Assembly (NCBI RefSeq): GCF_008580665.1
Contig: NZ_BKDJ01000010.1
Span: forward strand, 1-64,000
Length of the DNA: 64,000 bases
Source: Zafaria cholistanensis
GTDB taxonomy: Bacteria; Actinomycetota; Actinomycetes; Actinomycetales; Micrococcaceae
Direction: 5' to 3'
A program made the translations under genes and the position numbers. Under the pieces are notes generated by a model that did not search any database, had not been told where the DNA came from, and saw nothing but the letters and a program-made list of their open reading frames with translations. Shown here one piece after another: positions 31,339 through 39,579 of the stretch (its first letter is position 1; every line of letters starts with the position of its first letter).

Positions 31339-31452
31339 GTGCGGGGGCCGGTTTTTTGCCGGCGGACCGGCCAGGGTCCTAACAACAAGCAGGCCCAAAT
31401 GACAGCAGGCACAAAGAACACAGCAGGCCTTAAGAACACAGGGGGAAGCACC

Positions 31453-32259
31453 GTGGGAAGACTGCGTGCCGTGAGGCGCATCGGGACCGTCGGCGCCGTG
31501 GCGCTGGCCGCCGCACTGTCCGCGCTCCCGCTGGGGAACGTACCGCACGCCTCCGCTGCCGGCACCACGGCGCCCAAGGCCTTCACCGCCGCCGGGACAA
31601 CATCCCAGTACCGCGTGTACGCGGCCGGCACCGGGGATCCCAAGGGCATCCTCTTCTACCTGGACGGGGACGGACAGTGGGCCTTCAACCACCCCGCCAG
31701 CCCCTATGCGCTCGGCGGCAGCACCGGCATCGTGGCCAATGCCCGCACCCGCGGGTACATCACCGTTGCCGTGAAGACCCCCGACCGGAAGGGCACGCCC
31801 ACCTGGTGGGAGGACGGGGCGAAGAACGCCGCGTACTTCGACGCGCTCCGGCGCAAGGTCCAGGGCCAGTACCCCAAGGCCGAACACATCTGGCTCGCCG
31901 GCTACTCGGGCGGCGCGGAGTTCCTCACCGAGTCCTACCTGCCCCGGTACCCCTCCGCGATTGCCCGCGGTGGCGGCGCCGTCCTGCTCGGTGGCGGAAG
32001 CGCGCCCTACCAGCGGGCCAAGTCCTTCCCTCAATCCAAGGCTGCCAGGTTCGCCATGCACTGGTACACCGGTGCGGCGGACACCGCGGCGAACTCCGGC
32101 GCCGGCTTCGACGCGCTCCGCCAGGCCAAGGCCGGCAAGGCCTGGTACGCCAAACGGGGGTTCCGCACCACCTCCCAGTACCCCGCCGGCGTCGGGCACG
32201 ACCTCTCCGGGCGGTTCGGGCGCGTAATCGGCGCGGCCCTCGACCGCAACGGGCGCTAA
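31453..32259 (+). CDS. Secreted alpha/beta hydrolase
   Basis: The 268-residue product starts at GTG after GGGGGAAG. A signal peptide (VGRLRAVRRIGTVGAVALAA..., cleavage near HASA) precedes a hydrolase domain with LFYLDGDGQWAF and the nucleophile elbow GYSGGAEF. A late GVGHDLSGRFG may supply the histidine. Resembles secreted esterase/depolymerase-like proteins; no substrate known. An ATG at 31399 is in frame but would bury the signal peptide. It diverges from the molybdoenzyme. Confidence 0.75.
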   Translation: MGRLRAVRRIGTVGAVALAAALSALPLGNVPHASAAGTTAPKAFTAAGTTSQYRVYAAGTGDPKGILFYLDGDGQWAFNHPASPYALGGSTGIVANARTRGYITVAVKTPDRKGTPTWWEDGAKNAAYFDALRRKVQGQYPKAEHIWLAGYSGGAEFLTESYLPRYPSAIARGGGAVLLGGGSAPYQRAKSFPQSKAARFAMHWYTGAADTAANSGAGFDALRQAKAGKAWYAKRGFRTTSQYPAGVGHDLSGRFGRVIGAALDRNGR

Positions 32260-32511: not shown

Positions 32512-33087
32512 ATGAAAAAGCTCCAGGCGTGGCTCGCGACCATCCTGCTGGTCGCGGGGCTGGGACTCGTCGCCCCCAGCACCGCCACCGCAGCACCCAG
32601 CACCACCACCGCAGTACCCAGCGCAGCCCCCTTCTGCGGCATCACTTGGGGATCCCTGCCCAAGACCTCCTCGACGAAGTACGTCCCGGTGGTCACCAAC
32701 GTCCGGGCCGGCCGGCATCGCTGCTTCGACCGCCTGGTGATCGACCTCAAGGGCAAGCGCCCCGGCTACGACGTCCGCTACGGCGCGGTCTACACCGAGG
32801 GCCAGGGAGCGCGGGTGCACCTGCGTGGCACCGACATGCGCATCACCATCAAGGCCCCGGCCTACAACAGCAAGGGCCAGGCAACGTACACGCCGCGCAA
32901 CCGGTCCAACATCGTCAACGTCAGCAACTTTGACACCTTCCGCCAGGTCGCCTGGGCCGGAAGCTTCGAGGGCCAGACCACCATCGGCCTGGGCGTCCGC
33001 GCCCGCCTGCCGTTCCGCGTATTCACCCTCGCCGGCCCGGGGCCGAACCAGACCATGCTGGTCATCGACGTCGCCCGCCGCTGGTAA
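32512..33087 (+). CDS. Secreted AMIN-like domain protein
   Basis: The 191-residue protein has a signal peptide (MKKLQAWLATILLVAGLGLV, cleavage near TATAA). The mature part is a beta-rich domain with CFDRLVIDLKGKRPGYDVRY and a C-terminal FRVFTLAGPGPNQTMLVIDV. This is the actinobacterial AMIN-like domain, often found on secreted or lipoproteins and thought to bind cell-wall material. Two cysteines (CGITWG, RCFD) could pair. A short APSTTTAVPS linker follows the signal. The 252 bp before it show no other gene. Confidence 0.75.
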   Translation: MKKLQAWLATILLVAGLGLVAPSTATAAPSTTTAVPSAAPFCGITWGSLPKTSSTKYVPVVTNVRAGRHRCFDRLVIDLKGKRPGYDVRYGAVYTEGQGARVHLRGTDMRITIKAPAYNSKGQATYTPRNRSNIVNVSNFDTFRQVAWAGSFEGQTTIGLGVRARLPFRVFTLAGPGPNQTMLVIDVARRW

Positions 33088-33204
33088 ACAAGCGCCGGCG
33101 TCCGCCCGGGCAAACGCTGCCCGGGCGGCCGCCGCTTGCTGGAGAGGGTCCCTGGCCTAAAGACGTGCAGTCTGGAAGGCATGCAGCCTAGAGGACGTGG
33201 GGCC

Positions 33205-33251
33205 TCATAGCGCGTGGAGCAGGATGGGCTCGGTGGTGGGCTGCGGGGAAC
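33205..33251 (-). pseudogene. Displaced 3' end of rskA
   Basis: This segment encodes PQPTTEPILLHAL and a stop, the same 13 C-terminal residues as the intact rskA 0.84 kb away, with several synonymous differences. 33215-33251 matches 34059-34095 with two mismatches in 37 bases. It looks like the original gene end pushed aside by the vsr insert. The remaining 33088-33385 stretch holds nothing else recognisable. Confidence 0.75.
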
Positions 33252-33385
33252 ATGATGACCCAGGCCGTATCACTGCCGCGCCCAATCCAACTCGCTGCGG
33301 CACTAAGCGGTCCGGGAACCAGCTCAGGGACGCACCCTACCCACCCGCTTCCGAGCGGCGGAAGGAAACCTGTGGGTCGTCACTT

Positions 33386-33799
33386 CTAATCCACGCGGCA
33401 AGGTCTTCCGTGACCCTTTCCAGCGACCCCCCCCTGTCCGCGCAGGGCACACTCCCATACAGTGGCGATTCGCCACCCAGCCTCGGTAAGCTGTTTAACA
33501 ACCCGCTCGTCCCTGGCCTGATTGCCGCCAATCTTTTCTTCCCAGAACTCCTGCCTGGTCTTGGGCCAGCGGAAAAGTGGGCAGTCATGGCCATGCCAGA
33601 AGCAGCCATGGACCATGATCACGGCCTGATACCGCGGCAGGACGATGTCAGGTTTCCCCGGCAGCTGCTTCACATTGACGCGGTAGCGGAATCCCCTGCT
33701 GTGAAGACTCCGCCTGATGGCTACTTCGATTTTCGTATTGGTTGACCTGACGGCAGCCATGTTCCGGCTGCGGGCCTCTGGAGTGATCTTATCGGCCAT
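33386..33799 (-). CDS. vsr: Very short patch repair (Vsr) type endonuclease
   Basis: The 137-residue protein has the Vsr core: RNMAAVRSTNTKIEVAIRR near the N-terminus, KPDIVLPRYQAVIMVHGCFWHGHDC with the catalytic Asp and zinc/histidine residues, and KTRQEFWEEKIGGNQARD, then a typical GWRIATVWECALRG. Vsr enzymes nick beside T:G mismatches made by deamination of 5-methylcytosine, and usually sit next to a cytosine methyltransferase; none is adjacent here. It is slightly shorter than the E. coli enzyme at its C-terminus. The base composition is lower in G+C than its neighbours, and it lies in an insert bounded by copies of the rskA 3' end. Confidence 0.88.
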   Translation of the reverse strand: MADKITPEARSRNMAAVRSTNTKIEVAIRRSLHSRGFRYRVNVKQLPGKPDIVLPRYQAVIMVHGCFWHGHDCPLFRWPKTRQEFWEEKIGGNQARDERVVKQLTEAGWRIATVWECALRGQGGVAGKGHGRPCRVD

Positions 33800-33872
33800 A
33801 CCTTATTGTCCATGCATGAGATTCCGGCTCCGGTCCATCAGGACGGGTACGGTACCGCTCTCTCTGCTGCGC

Positions 33873-34001
33873 TCATGGTGGGTTCGCGGACTCCAAAACC
33901 TTGATGCTGTCGACGAAGTCGGGCTTCCGGTCGGCGTCTTTACGGACGCTGATGTCCATGGCCAGCGTGACGCCCGACCGTTTCCAACAGGCGCCTTTCA
34001 G
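33873..34001 (-). pseudogene. Possible C-terminal remnant of an unknown gene in the vsr insert
   Basis: A 42-codon open stretch with no start at its head ends in a stop at 33873. It includes SGVTLAMDISVRKDADRK and FVDSIKVLES, which look like real protein sequence. No family was recognised. It lies between rskA and vsr inside the insert. Confidence 0.25.
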
Positions 34002-34048
34002 TCAGGGCTTCAGGGCCCGGTGGCCGCCTCGATACAGGATGCTGTGGC

Positions 34049-34885
34049 TCAGAGGGCATGGAGCAGGATCGGCTCGGTGGTGGGCTGCGGCGAACCCGCC
34101 GCCGGTTCCACCGTGATACCCAGGTGCGTGACGCCCTCCATCTGGCCCTCCACCAGCGCGACGCCGCTGCCGGGCATCATCCCGGCCGGGGTTGCCCCGT
34201 CCGCGGAGATCAGCCACAGCTCGTAGCCGTGCCCTTCCGGCGCGTCCGGCAGGTCCTCGCCGGAGACCGTCATGAGCCCCTCCGAGGGCGAGTAGGCCAG
34301 CACGACGGCGGCGCCGCCGACGGTCTGGGCCTGCGCGGCCCGCAGGTCCGGGGCCTCGAGGAGCCGGCGCATCTGCGCGGCGTCGTTTTGGGCCGCCGCC
34401 AGCTGCTGGCGCATCTGCTCCTGCTGGTTCTGCTGCCACAGCACGGTGCCGCCCAGGCCGGCGGTCGCCACCAGCAGCGCGGACGCGGCCAGGGCCAGGC
34501 CGCTGAACCAGCGGCGCTTGCCGGCGCGGCGGGAACGGCGGGTGGGGTCAAGCCACACCGGTGCGGCCTCGGGTGCCGGGACGGGTGCGGCCGCCGGAGC
34601 CGGTGTGCCGGCGTCGTGCTGGTTCCCCTGGTGCTGGTCCCCGTCCTGCTGGTCCGTGTGGGACCGGGCCGCGTCATCTTCCGCGGGCAACTGAGGAACG
34701 GAGCGGATCGCGGCCATGACGTTGCGCTTGAGGGAGGGCGGCGGGGTCTCGGCGACGGCCAGGCCCAGCAGGGCGGAGACGTCGGCGTCGAAGTCCGGCT
34801 CCGCGGTCTCCTGCCATTCACTGCCCTGCGAACCGCTGCCCCGCATACTGGGGTCCTGCAGGTTCTGGTCCTTGTTTTCCATCAT
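34049..34885 (-). CDS. rskA: Anti-sigma-K factor RskA
   Basis: The 278-residue protein has an N-terminal zinc-less anti-sigma region (DADVSALLGLAVAETPPPSLK), a Pro/Ala linker, one membrane segment (RRWFSGLALAASALLVATAGLGG, about 123-145) and a C-terminal extracytoplasmic RskA domain (YELWLISADGATPAGMMPG). It holds SigK inactive at the membrane until cleaved. Its ATG overlaps the sigK stop (ATGA), so the two are translated together. The last 13 codons seem to have been supplied by the inserted vsr element, since a second version lies beyond it. Confidence 0.88.
   Translation of the reverse strand: MMENKDQNLQDPSMRGSGSQGSEWQETAEPDFDADVSALLGLAVAETPPPSLKRNVMAAIRSVPQLPAEDDAARSHTDQQDGDQHQGNQHDAGTPAPAAAPVPAPEAAPVWLDPTRRSRRAGKRRWFSGLALAASALLVATAGLGGTVLWQQNQQEQMRQQLAAAQNDAAQMRRLLEAPDLRAAQAQTVGGAAVVLAYSPSEGLMTVSGEDLPDAPEGHGYELWLISADGATPAGMMPGSGVALVEGQMEGVTHLGITVEPAAGSPQPTTEPILLHAL
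34059..34095. repeat. Direct repeat, copy at the present rskA end
   Basis: These 37 bases match 33215-33251 with two mismatches in the same orientation. The two copies bound an insert of about 0.8 kb containing vsr. Confidence 0.85.
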
Positions 34886-36515: not shown

Positions 36516-36542
36516 GTTCGGAGCGGAGGGGAAGGTGGATTG
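36516..36542 (-). promoter_or_regulatory. Predicted SigK-type promoter of the fasciclin gene
   Basis: On the minus strand CAATCC (36537-36542) and CCGAAC (36516-36521) are 15 bp apart, with the same 15-base box TCCGCTCCGAACCCC as the molybdoenzyme promoter. The start codon is about 70 bp downstream. Confidence 0.55.
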
Positions 36543-36689
36543 GAAGATTTTCGAGAGATTTTTTAGGCCTCAGCCCGGGCGGCCCTGAGAGTCGACTTTC
36601 GCCCCTCATGACTCCAACAGCCTGCCTGCCTGCCTGCCATCAGGCGCGTTGCATCTGGATACGGCTGCCGTTGCCATAGTCTCAGCGAC

Positions 36690-37682
36690 ATGAGCATCCC
36701 TCTACGGATCACCCTCACCATGGCCCAACGGCTCGCGGTGATGAGTCCTGCGGACAATATGCTGCGGGATCCCGCACCACTTCCACAGGCCGTGGTTCCG
36801 CTAGCTTCCTGGCTTACGGACGCTGTTACCCCGGATCAGCGTTGGGCGAAGCTTTTGATCGCGCAGCCGATGGCGGAACGGGTGGAACTCCAGTTGGGCG
36901 GTAAACGGACTGTTTCCGCAGCCGCCATCCCGGGCCTGAATCCGGCTGCCGCCCGAAAACTGGCACAAGTGATCGGGGCCGAGTGGGTGTGGTTGCAATC
37001 CAAGGCTGGGCGAACCGATGCCTGCTTCTCGGGTTCCCGGAGTCGCTTCACGCTGGGCAGGGCTGATGTGCTCGCGGCCCAGCACGGAGGGACCTTGGAG
37101 AAGACATTGCGCAATCGCGGCTTCGACTTCGCAATACCGCAGTGGACGAATGTCGATCGTCCGGGCTGGCACCTATCAAACCTCGGTGCGACCTGCCATT
37201 GCGGACGCAACCTCGTGCTCGTGGACTGGTGGCATGCCGAAGCCCCGCGGCGTGCCAACAGCCACTTCGTGGCCTGCTCTGCCCACGGCATCGTCGGTGC
37301 AGTGGAAGGCGCCCCATGGCGAAACCTAGTCCAACTCCGCCGCGAACTCGATGCGGCCTTAGCCGTCCAGGGCCCTGCCGCCCGCCGCTACAGCGTTTAC
37401 GTGGTTGAGGTCCTTGGTCTTCCGCGCAGCAGCAAGCGTCCGGTGTACGTGGGCATGACCAGTAAGCCGATCCCGGTTCGGCTGGAGGAGCATGCCATAG
37501 AGGGTCATCCCCTTCAGGGAAGAGTCTTTAGGAAGGCCAAGGGAGGGCGGGTTGGTCAATTACTTGCCGAGGAGACCAAAAGCCTTCCCGAATTGCGTTC
37601 CCAATTGGCTGCCCGAACCGCCGAAGCATGGGTGGCCGAAGTCCTCAGGCTGCGTGGCTTCGACGTGCATGGCGGGCATTAA
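36690..37682 (+). CDS. Protein with C-terminal GIY-YIG-like nuclease domain
   Basis: The 330-residue protein is unknown over its first 220 residues, which include a CHCG motif (GATCHCGRNLVLVDWWH) and a further cysteine that could bind zinc. The C-terminal part (from about 225) has RYSVYVVEV...RPVYVGMTSKPIPVRLEEH, the pattern of a GIY-YIG nuclease. It is the first gene of the AT-richer island after the SigK locus. No ribosome binding site of note is seen before the ATG. A role in DNA processing or defence is inferred from the domain and setting. Confidence 0.6.
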   Translation: MSIPLRITLTMAQRLAVMSPADNMLRDPAPLPQAVVPLASWLTDAVTPDQRWAKLLIAQPMAERVELQLGGKRTVSAAAIPGLNPAAARKLAQVIGAEWVWLQSKAGRTDACFSGSRSRFTLGRADVLAAQHGGTLEKTLRNRGFDFAIPQWTNVDRPGWHLSNLGATCHCGRNLVLVDWWHAEAPRRANSHFVACSAHGIVGAVEGAPWRNLVQLRRELDAALAVQGPAARRYSVYVVEVLGLPRSSKRPVYVGMTSKPIPVRLEEHAIEGHPLQGRVFRKAKGGRVGQLLAEETKSLPELRSQLAARTAEAWVAEVLRLRGFDVHGGH

Positions 37683-37750
37683 CCACCCCAAGACCACCAC
37701 GGCAAAACTTGAAGCCGGAGGGGACGCTATCTGCCTGCAGTCTCGGTTGA

Positions 37751-37990
37751 TCAGGGTTGTCGTAAGCTTCTGGCCGCTTCTCCGACTTGCCGGTAAACCT
37801 TCCTGGCTTGCTCGCTTGACGCGACTCTATAAATGTCGCTGGCAGTCTTGACTGCCCGCTCAACCAGCAGCCGAGCTTCCGGGTCTTTGGCCAAGCGAGC
37901 TACGCGCTGTGCGACCGCGGCTGCCCTCTGCGCGGCCGGTAATGCCGCTCGAGCTGCACCGGTTGCAGCCCTCAATGGATTCTCGCTCAT
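37751..37990 (-). CDS. Small Ala/Arg-rich protein divergent from the Gly/Ala-segment gene
   Basis: The 79-residue product is helical, positively charged and Ala-rich (AALPAAQRAAAVAQRVARLA, then LVERAVKTASDIYRVAS). No family was recognised. An AAAGGA site at a good distance supports the ATG. Its first 16 bp overlap the start of the oppositely directed gene, so the two start regions lie within each other. It may be a partner or antitoxin-like regulator of that gene, which is speculation. Confidence 0.45.
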   Translation of the reverse strand: MSENPLRAATGAARAALPAAQRAAAVAQRVARLAKDPEARLLVERAVKTASDIYRVASSEQARKVYRQVGEAARSLRQP

Positions 37991-39579
37991 TCCGCATCCT
38001 TTTTGGCAGAGACTACAACAAGATTGGGGGTCCTGCAGATACGCTGCCCCACTCCGACATTGGCGCTATCGAAAGAACAGGGATAGTCGAAATCGAGCTT
38101 CATCTCGACGAATCGACAGTTATCCTCGACGGCAAAGTGGCGTTGCGTACCCCCTCAGTAGTGACTTCCGCCGATGAGCAAGTACTACGTACTACGGTCT
38201 ATGGCCTGTGGTTGAATTGGTGCCGCTACCACCGTTTAGAGTGGATATCAGCTTGGGGAGGGGAAGACGTGACCACCGATAACACGGCGTCCGTGCCAGT
38301 ATGGACACTCGCTACGGAGGCCGTGAGTGTGCCGAACGTGCTTGGCAATGAAAGCATGACACCGGCCCGGCTCGCAGAACTGCGAACTGTCCTCGCAACG
38401 CTTGCGGCTTCCCCCATCGCCACGCTGGAAGCGCATCCGATGCCGGCCACGCGCGAGCGCGCCGGTGGCATTGCGCTTCACGCAGCCAGTCCACTTGCCC
38501 AGCAGTTGTCGCAGCTCGTGGCCCGGACCGCGAAGTCAGTGCCTGCAGATCTGGACGTCGCCGCGACCGGTGAAGTGCTTTACCGGATGGTAGTACCGGC
38601 AAAGGTCGCCGCGCAGGTCGGTGAGGGACTCGTGAAGCCCATGGCTTCGAAGGCCGTGGCGGGAGGCGTATACAGCGCGCTGCGCGACTCCACCGGCATC
38701 GTAGCTAAGGCTACGTTTGTGCCCGTTGCAGGCAATACCGCTGTTGCAGGTGCGGCTACAGGTTCGGCTGCCACGGCTGGTGTGGCCGTAGCCAGCGCCG
38801 GGGCGTTGACAGTGGCCGCCCCTCTTGTGCTGATGGCCGTCGCGGTCAGCGTCAGTGCCTACGCCGATCACCAACGCCAGCAAGCGATCGAGCGAATCAC
38901 CGACCTGTTGGAACAGTTGCGCGAAGACAACCTCGAGAAGGAACGCAACGGGTTGGACGGTTGCCGTGACGCGATCGACAAGGCAACATCGGTCCTCCTC
39001 GACCAAGGTAAAATCGGCCAATCTTTAGGACTGGATTCAGCCTCGCATGAGATCAGCACCGCGATCGCCGCAGCCAGGAATCGGCTCGCCAAATGGCAGG
39101 CTGCCCTAAAGGCGCTGCCCGAGGGCCCGGTTGATCTTGGTGTATTGACGAAATCATTCCCCGGGCTTGCCGAGGAAGGCGGCGAATTCCGCGCCCACTT
39201 AGAGCTTGCGCGACTCGCCATTGCTCTCAAACGCCGAGTGCTCGTGCTTCAAGCCGTTGAACACGCTCAGCGGGATACGAACAATCCGTTCAAGAGCTTC
39301 ATCGGAGAATTGCGCGGCGACGAGCGTCGCGTTGACGAGTTGGAATCGGGCATCAACACGGTTCTCCTTCGACTGTCGGCTCTCGAGGTGAAGCGCCATG
39401 GCGGCTTCCGAATTCCCGCATTTACGCCGGGAGAGGTCGACTACCTGCTCCAGGCCGTCTATCGCCTGCGCGCCTTGGGCGATGGCCTCAACGCGGGAAC
39501 CCAGCAAGCTGACGTAGTGATTGAGATCGAACGTAGCAGCGACGGATCGCTTGTAGTGTTCCCTGGAGTCGCTGCCTGA
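37975..39579 (+). CDS. Unknown protein with central Gly/Ala-rich hydrophobic segment and coiled coil
   Basis: The 534-residue protein is not recognised. Residues 1-190 look globular. From about 225 to 300 runs a Gly/Ala/Val-rich region (GNTAVAGAATGSAATAGVAV, PLVLMAVAVSVSAYA) able to enter a membrane. It is followed directly by a heptad-like charged helix (QAIERITDLLEQLREDNLEK) and more helical sequence. The layout resembles pore-forming or membrane-acting effectors, but this is inference. No ribosome binding site precedes the ATG. A terminator hairpin separates it from the convergent HNH gene. Confidence 0.55.
   Translation: MDSRSFRILFGRDYNKIGGPADTLPHSDIGAIERTGIVEIELHLDESTVILDGKVALRTPSVVTSADEQVLRTTVYGLWLNWCRYHRLEWISAWGGEDVTTDNTASVPVWTLATEAVSVPNVLGNESMTPARLAELRTVLATLAASPIATLEAHPMPATRERAGGIALHAASPLAQQLSQLVARTAKSVPADLDVAATGEVLYRMVVPAKVAAQVGEGLVKPMASKAVAGGVYSALRDSTGIVAKATFVPVAGNTAVAGAATGSAATAGVAVASAGALTVAAPLVLMAVAVSVSAYADHQRQQAIERITDLLEQLREDNLEKERNGLDGCRDAIDKATSVLLDQGKIGQSLGLDSASHEISTAIAAARNRLAKWQAALKALPEGPVDLGVLTKSFPGLAEEGGEFRAHLELARLAIALKRRVLVLQAVEHAQRDTNNPFKSFIGELRGDERRVDELESGINTVLLRLSALEVKRHGGFRIPAFTPGEVDYLLQAVYRLRALGDGLNAGTQQADVVIEIERSSDGSLVVFPGVAA

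Follow-up and report, generated by a model that had tools for sequence, protein, structure and literature searches.

A plasmid-related insert carrying vsr between two synonymous copies of the rskA 3' end in Zafaria cholistanensis

Integrases use tRNA genes and some protein genes as attachment sites, and the integrative elements found at the 3' ends of such genes are the closest described counterparts of the locus reported here. A second relevant group is formed by Vsr, a mismatch-repair nuclease that shares its fold with the EDxHD homing endonucleases. We have analysed a window of 64,000 nucleotides (the whole stretch of DNA that was studied) from Zafaria cholistanensis, in which a short segment carrying a vsr gene adjoins the 3' end of rskA, the gene of an anti-sigma-K factor (Table 1). 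The segment at the rskA end is foreign and plasmid-related, and overall we regard the locus as a genuine scar of horizontal DNA entry, though one of an ordinary kind. It is of interest because the uptake of DNA would here have exchanged the end of a regulatory gene for a foreign copy with synonymous changes only, rskA remaining functional.

Table 1. Features at the 3' end of rskA in the Zafaria cholistanensis window
Feature	Coordinates	Strand	Evidence or remark
Tail copy 2, second rskA 3' end, belonging to no gene	33205..33251	-	five synonymous differences from copy 1
797-bp insert between the tails	33252..34048	.	GC ~0.58-0.65 vs ~0.69-0.76 in most neighbouring windows
Out-of-frame vsr continuation, SLERVTEDLAAWIRSDDPQVSFRRSEAGG and a stop	33337..33426	-	
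Open frame of vsr (137 aa), encoding a canonical Vsr whose last ~14 residues are out of frame	33386..33799	-	PF03852, TIGR00632, 1cw0 alignment
C8 tract, read as G8 in the coding strand, at which vsr loses its frame	33427..33434	.	
Decayed 5' parB fragment (~codons 13-60), frame broken, plasmid type	33824..33969	-	DNA similarity
Tail copy 1, current rskA 3' end, SPQPTTEPILLHAL and a stop	34049..34095	-	repeat search and translation
rskA, intact anti-sigma-K factor (278 aa)	34049..34885	-	PF10099 E=1e-22; C-termini of relatives align in register

The 3' end of rskA is present twice, as direct copies of a 47-nt block that includes the stop codon, 42 of the 47 positions being identical. The first-pass annotation had described a pair of 37-mers with two mismatches at 33215-33251 and 34059-34095, which is correct and is the better-matching portion of this block. 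It had also taken the copies to encode the last 13 residues of RskA plus a stop; a shared RskA end is indeed found, but the common tail consists of 14 residues plus the stop, which the 37-mer alone misses. Both tails translate on the - strand to SPQPTTEPILLHAL followed by a stop, and copy 2 reads GCGCTATGA. In a direct-repeat search the strongest repeat near the site spanned 33189-33251 and 34033-34095, and the flanking repeat score of 33 at rskA was about twice the best score (17) beside vsr elsewhere, i.e. at 29 other vsr loci of the family and a vsr fragment in the same genome, most of which scored 11-13 or had no repeat; therefore, the repeat of the rskA tail is not a matter of chance. The five differences between the tails (TCG/TCC, CCG/CCC, CAT/CAC, GCC/GCG and CTC/CTA) are all at third positions and, as had been noticed at the outset, all synonymous, for which the chance probabilities are 0.0025 and ~0.0015, respectively (P ~0.002 overall). 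Since all five are of this kind, the two tails most likely diverged while each of them ended a functional rskA. Furthermore, both tails share the ending LLHAL, which is absent from every relative's tail that was read, so the second tail probably came from a congener, that is, a species of the same genus. By these data either tail may be the native one; under an insertion model, copy 2 would be native and copy 1 would have arrived with the insert.

Two simpler origins of the repeat were considered. A transposon target-site duplication was rejected, as it is expected to give identical copies or random differences rather than five synonymous ones, and its usual length is far below 47 bp. Drift of an initially identical duplication after the insertion is disfavoured by the same P of ~0.002, though changes limited to the functional copy could still account for the pattern.

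Between the two tails the insert consists of a parB fragment followed by vsr, the latter being the only near-complete gene; the gene remnant reported next to vsr in the first-pass annotation derives from the 5' portion of such a gene, a plasmid parB. Translated pieces of this remnant had no Pfam match, and its identity came from DNA similarity instead. The fragment matches 23 plasmid records at 68-83% nucleotide identity, all of them from Arthrobacter, Pseudarthrobacter or Paenarthrobacter, and 19 of these plasmids are typed as conjugative. In plasmid pACHL02, the two pieces that match the fragment are collinear over 147 bp, compared with 145 bp here.

The vsr product is a canonical Vsr, matching TIGR00632 with 156.3 bits (cut-off 97.85) and PF03852 with E=2e-32 and 111.4 bits (cut-off 27). 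An alignment with E. coli Vsr (PDB 1cw0) covers residues 8-123, and in it the residues that we take to be catalytic (E25, D51, H64 and H69) and zinc-binding (C66, H71, C73 and C117) in the E. coli enzyme are all kept. The gene had been recognized correctly as that of a nuclease, but it is not intact over its full length: near its 3' end the C8 tract interrupts the reading frame, and the C-terminal homology runs on in another frame to 33337, a frameshift that a homopolymer sequencing slip may have caused. The nearest relatives of this Vsr, found in genus g31, on the Arthrobacter agilis plasmid pAAG24-152 and on viral contigs, adjoin dcm and often also a type II restriction enzyme gene. No dcm is found in the window, and no C5-cytosine methyltransferase (PF00145) in the genome, which is 99.96% complete. 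A second vsr fragment, broken and with 82% DNA identity, occurs in the same genome on another contig (C11:81106-81317), where it is flanked by a LysR-type gene and an ORF of 161 aa and lies ~1 kb from a Mutator-family transposase; no copied gene end is found beside it. In Caulobacter, a Vsr-like protein without a methyltransferase partner leads to a DNA damage response and reduced fitness (PMC12907096), and the decay of the orphan vsr here fits this harm. Judged from these sequence features, vsr looks like a passenger rather than the driver of the insertion.

The comparison of the sigK-rskA locus proposed in the first-pass annotation was carried out on relatives of other genera, since a search of the genus gave only the present genome; a scan of genome contigs for a close relative gave only Glutamicibacter sp. 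PS, with an RskA identity of 54%. Most of the 21 rskA loci of the family have the arrangement fas-sigK-rskA-(DUF4383)-molybdopterin oxidoreductase along a single strand, and the oxidoreductase usually follows rskA within ~1-2 kb. In all 21 loci, read over 5-12 kb downstream, rskA is uninterrupted and neither vsr nor a second tail is found. A tail pattern run on 395 family genomes, a partial test as it detected the tail in 47 of them, gave two neighbouring copies in the Zafaria cholistanensis genome only, and insertions at this end of rskA do not recur among the family genomes searched. In Glutamicibacter sp. PS, a tandem pair of molybdopterin oxidoreductase genes follows rskA-DUF4383 (L063:6300-9594).

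The surroundings of rskA have changed as well. Here rskA is separated from the oxidoreductase gene by two further genes on the + strand, one AMIN-like (32512-33087) and the other a hydrolase-like ORF (~31411-32259); as the AMIN-like gene is located elsewhere in relatives, the interval between rskA and the oxidoreductase was rearranged beyond the vsr insert, and more than once. In relatives, a SigK-type promoter-like sequence, CCAATCC-N-CTCCGAA, lies just after rskA; it was not found after rskA here, and the single such site is at 36517-36543 (-), upstream of fas. The insert and the nearby rearrangement may thus have removed the downstream oxidoreductase from SigK control. Adjoining fas, at 36690-39579 (+), are two ORFs of 330 and 556 aa with a lower GC (0.54-0.68) and no Pfam match, which possibly form another island; on visual inspection the former ends in a C-terminal stretch resembling GIY-YIG, and the latter has a weak PADLOC match to LeoBC (E=0.002).

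A foreign insert that brought a substitute gene end fits the finding that all differences are synonymous, the fragment of a plasmid parB and the relatives that have no vsr at this locus, and to this extent the first-pass proposal that an element entered the 3' end of rskA and supplied a new end holds, apart from the role of driver that it suggested for Vsr. As to the nature of this element, we put the chances at about even that the insert is what is left, after shrinkage, of a plasmid-derived element for which the rskA 3' end served as attachment site and which later lost its integrase. Such an element would have entered the 3' end of rskA, whose end would thereby have been replaced by a synonymous copy that originated in another species, in all likelihood a congener, while the old end would have been stranded beyond the insert as copy 2. 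The integrase and most of the cargo would have been lost afterwards, and the parB fragment and vsr would be what remains. The vsr gene itself would have been cargo of a dcm-vsr-restriction cassette, of which the methyltransferase partner was lost and vsr is decaying. Evidence for this reading comes from the pattern of the tails, the plasmid parB, the low GC, the relatives that do not have the structure, the dcm-linked kin of the Vsr, the absence of PF00145 from the genome and the second, broken vsr. In addition, a gene-end repeat borders the insert and its near copy completes an intact RskA, as expected of an integrase-type element at a gene 3' end. Several observations stand against the integrase route. 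In agreement with the first-pass annotation, no integrase lies between the copies; the searches revealed neither an integrase nor traces of one in the insert or close to it, and no recombinase gene on its contig (C10), the matches to PF00589 in this genome being on contigs C20, C1 and C8 and those to PF00239 on contigs C8, C14 and C15. The site is not recurrent, searches with the rskA tail on phages, plasmids and viral contigs gave chance-level matches only and no attP-like copy, and the similarity of the tails past the stop codon is weak (10/16 over 16 nt, P ~0.03).

Another route is homology-assisted illegitimate recombination, which we regard as possible though less probable. Congener DNA containing rskA followed by parB and vsr would have recombined through homology on one side, whereas on the other it would have been joined non-homologously to the resident gene, inside its final 47 bp, so that the native tail was left over as copy 2. 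Such an event requires no integrase, and none is present; it accounts for tails that differ like two functional orthologues, and it is consistent with the similarity ending abruptly at 33251/34095, with an upstream score of 0. However, the join must land by chance in the last 47 bp of the gene, a position that an attachment-site mechanism predicts. The attachment scar of an integrase is somewhat favoured over this route, either route being inferred. It is unlikely that copy 2 is the residue of a lost paralogue, i.e. of a tandem-duplicated rskA that was mostly replaced by plasmid DNA carrying vsr. Two functional paralogues would likewise differ synonymously, tandem duplication is known in this region from the two molybdo-oxidoreductase genes of Glutamicibacter sp. 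PS, and one relative (G050) has two separate sigK-rskA loci; yet a tandem rskA is seen in no family genome that was read, and the survivor would have to be exactly the last 47 bp by chance. Finally, that an active Vsr of canonical fold made a break in the rskA 3' end and its gene was copied into this place during the repair, a mismatch-repair nuclease having turned homing nuclease, is very improbable in spite of the fold common to Vsr and EDxHD homing endonucleases and of a small insert with vsr as its only near-complete gene, since this Vsr has the score and the catalytic and zinc residues of a canonical enzyme, its nearest relatives are dcm partners, it is orphaned and its frame is broken, break repair from an allele would not alone explain the parB piece, and the search suggested earlier for other vsr genes bordered by a copied end of the neighbouring gene gave 0 of 29 family loci, leaving a single case with no repetition across genomes.

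The preferred reading, a plasmid-derived element at an attachment site, can be set against the described systems as follows. In contrast to integrative elements at the 3' ends of genes, no integrase is left here, the insert is just 797 bp long, and no recurrence at rskA is seen in the genomes searched; like the islands at tRNA and protein genes, on the other hand, the locus has a foreign segment bordered on either side by a direct repeat of the gene end, of which the near copy completes the gene and the far copy belongs to none, and the repeat is as long as typical attP/attB identity blocks. Unlike E. coli Vsr and the dcm-vsr-restriction cassettes such as that of pAAG24-152, the vsr gene has no dcm adjacent to it or elsewhere in the genome and its C-terminus is frameshifted, but the product belongs to the same family over residues 1-118 and has the same catalytic and zinc residues. 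Similarly, the parB fragment is truncated at both ends and broken in frame, unlike the ParB genes of Arthrobacter-group plasmids such as pMK-1 and pACHL02, with which it nevertheless shares ~145 bp of the 5' coding part at the identities given above.
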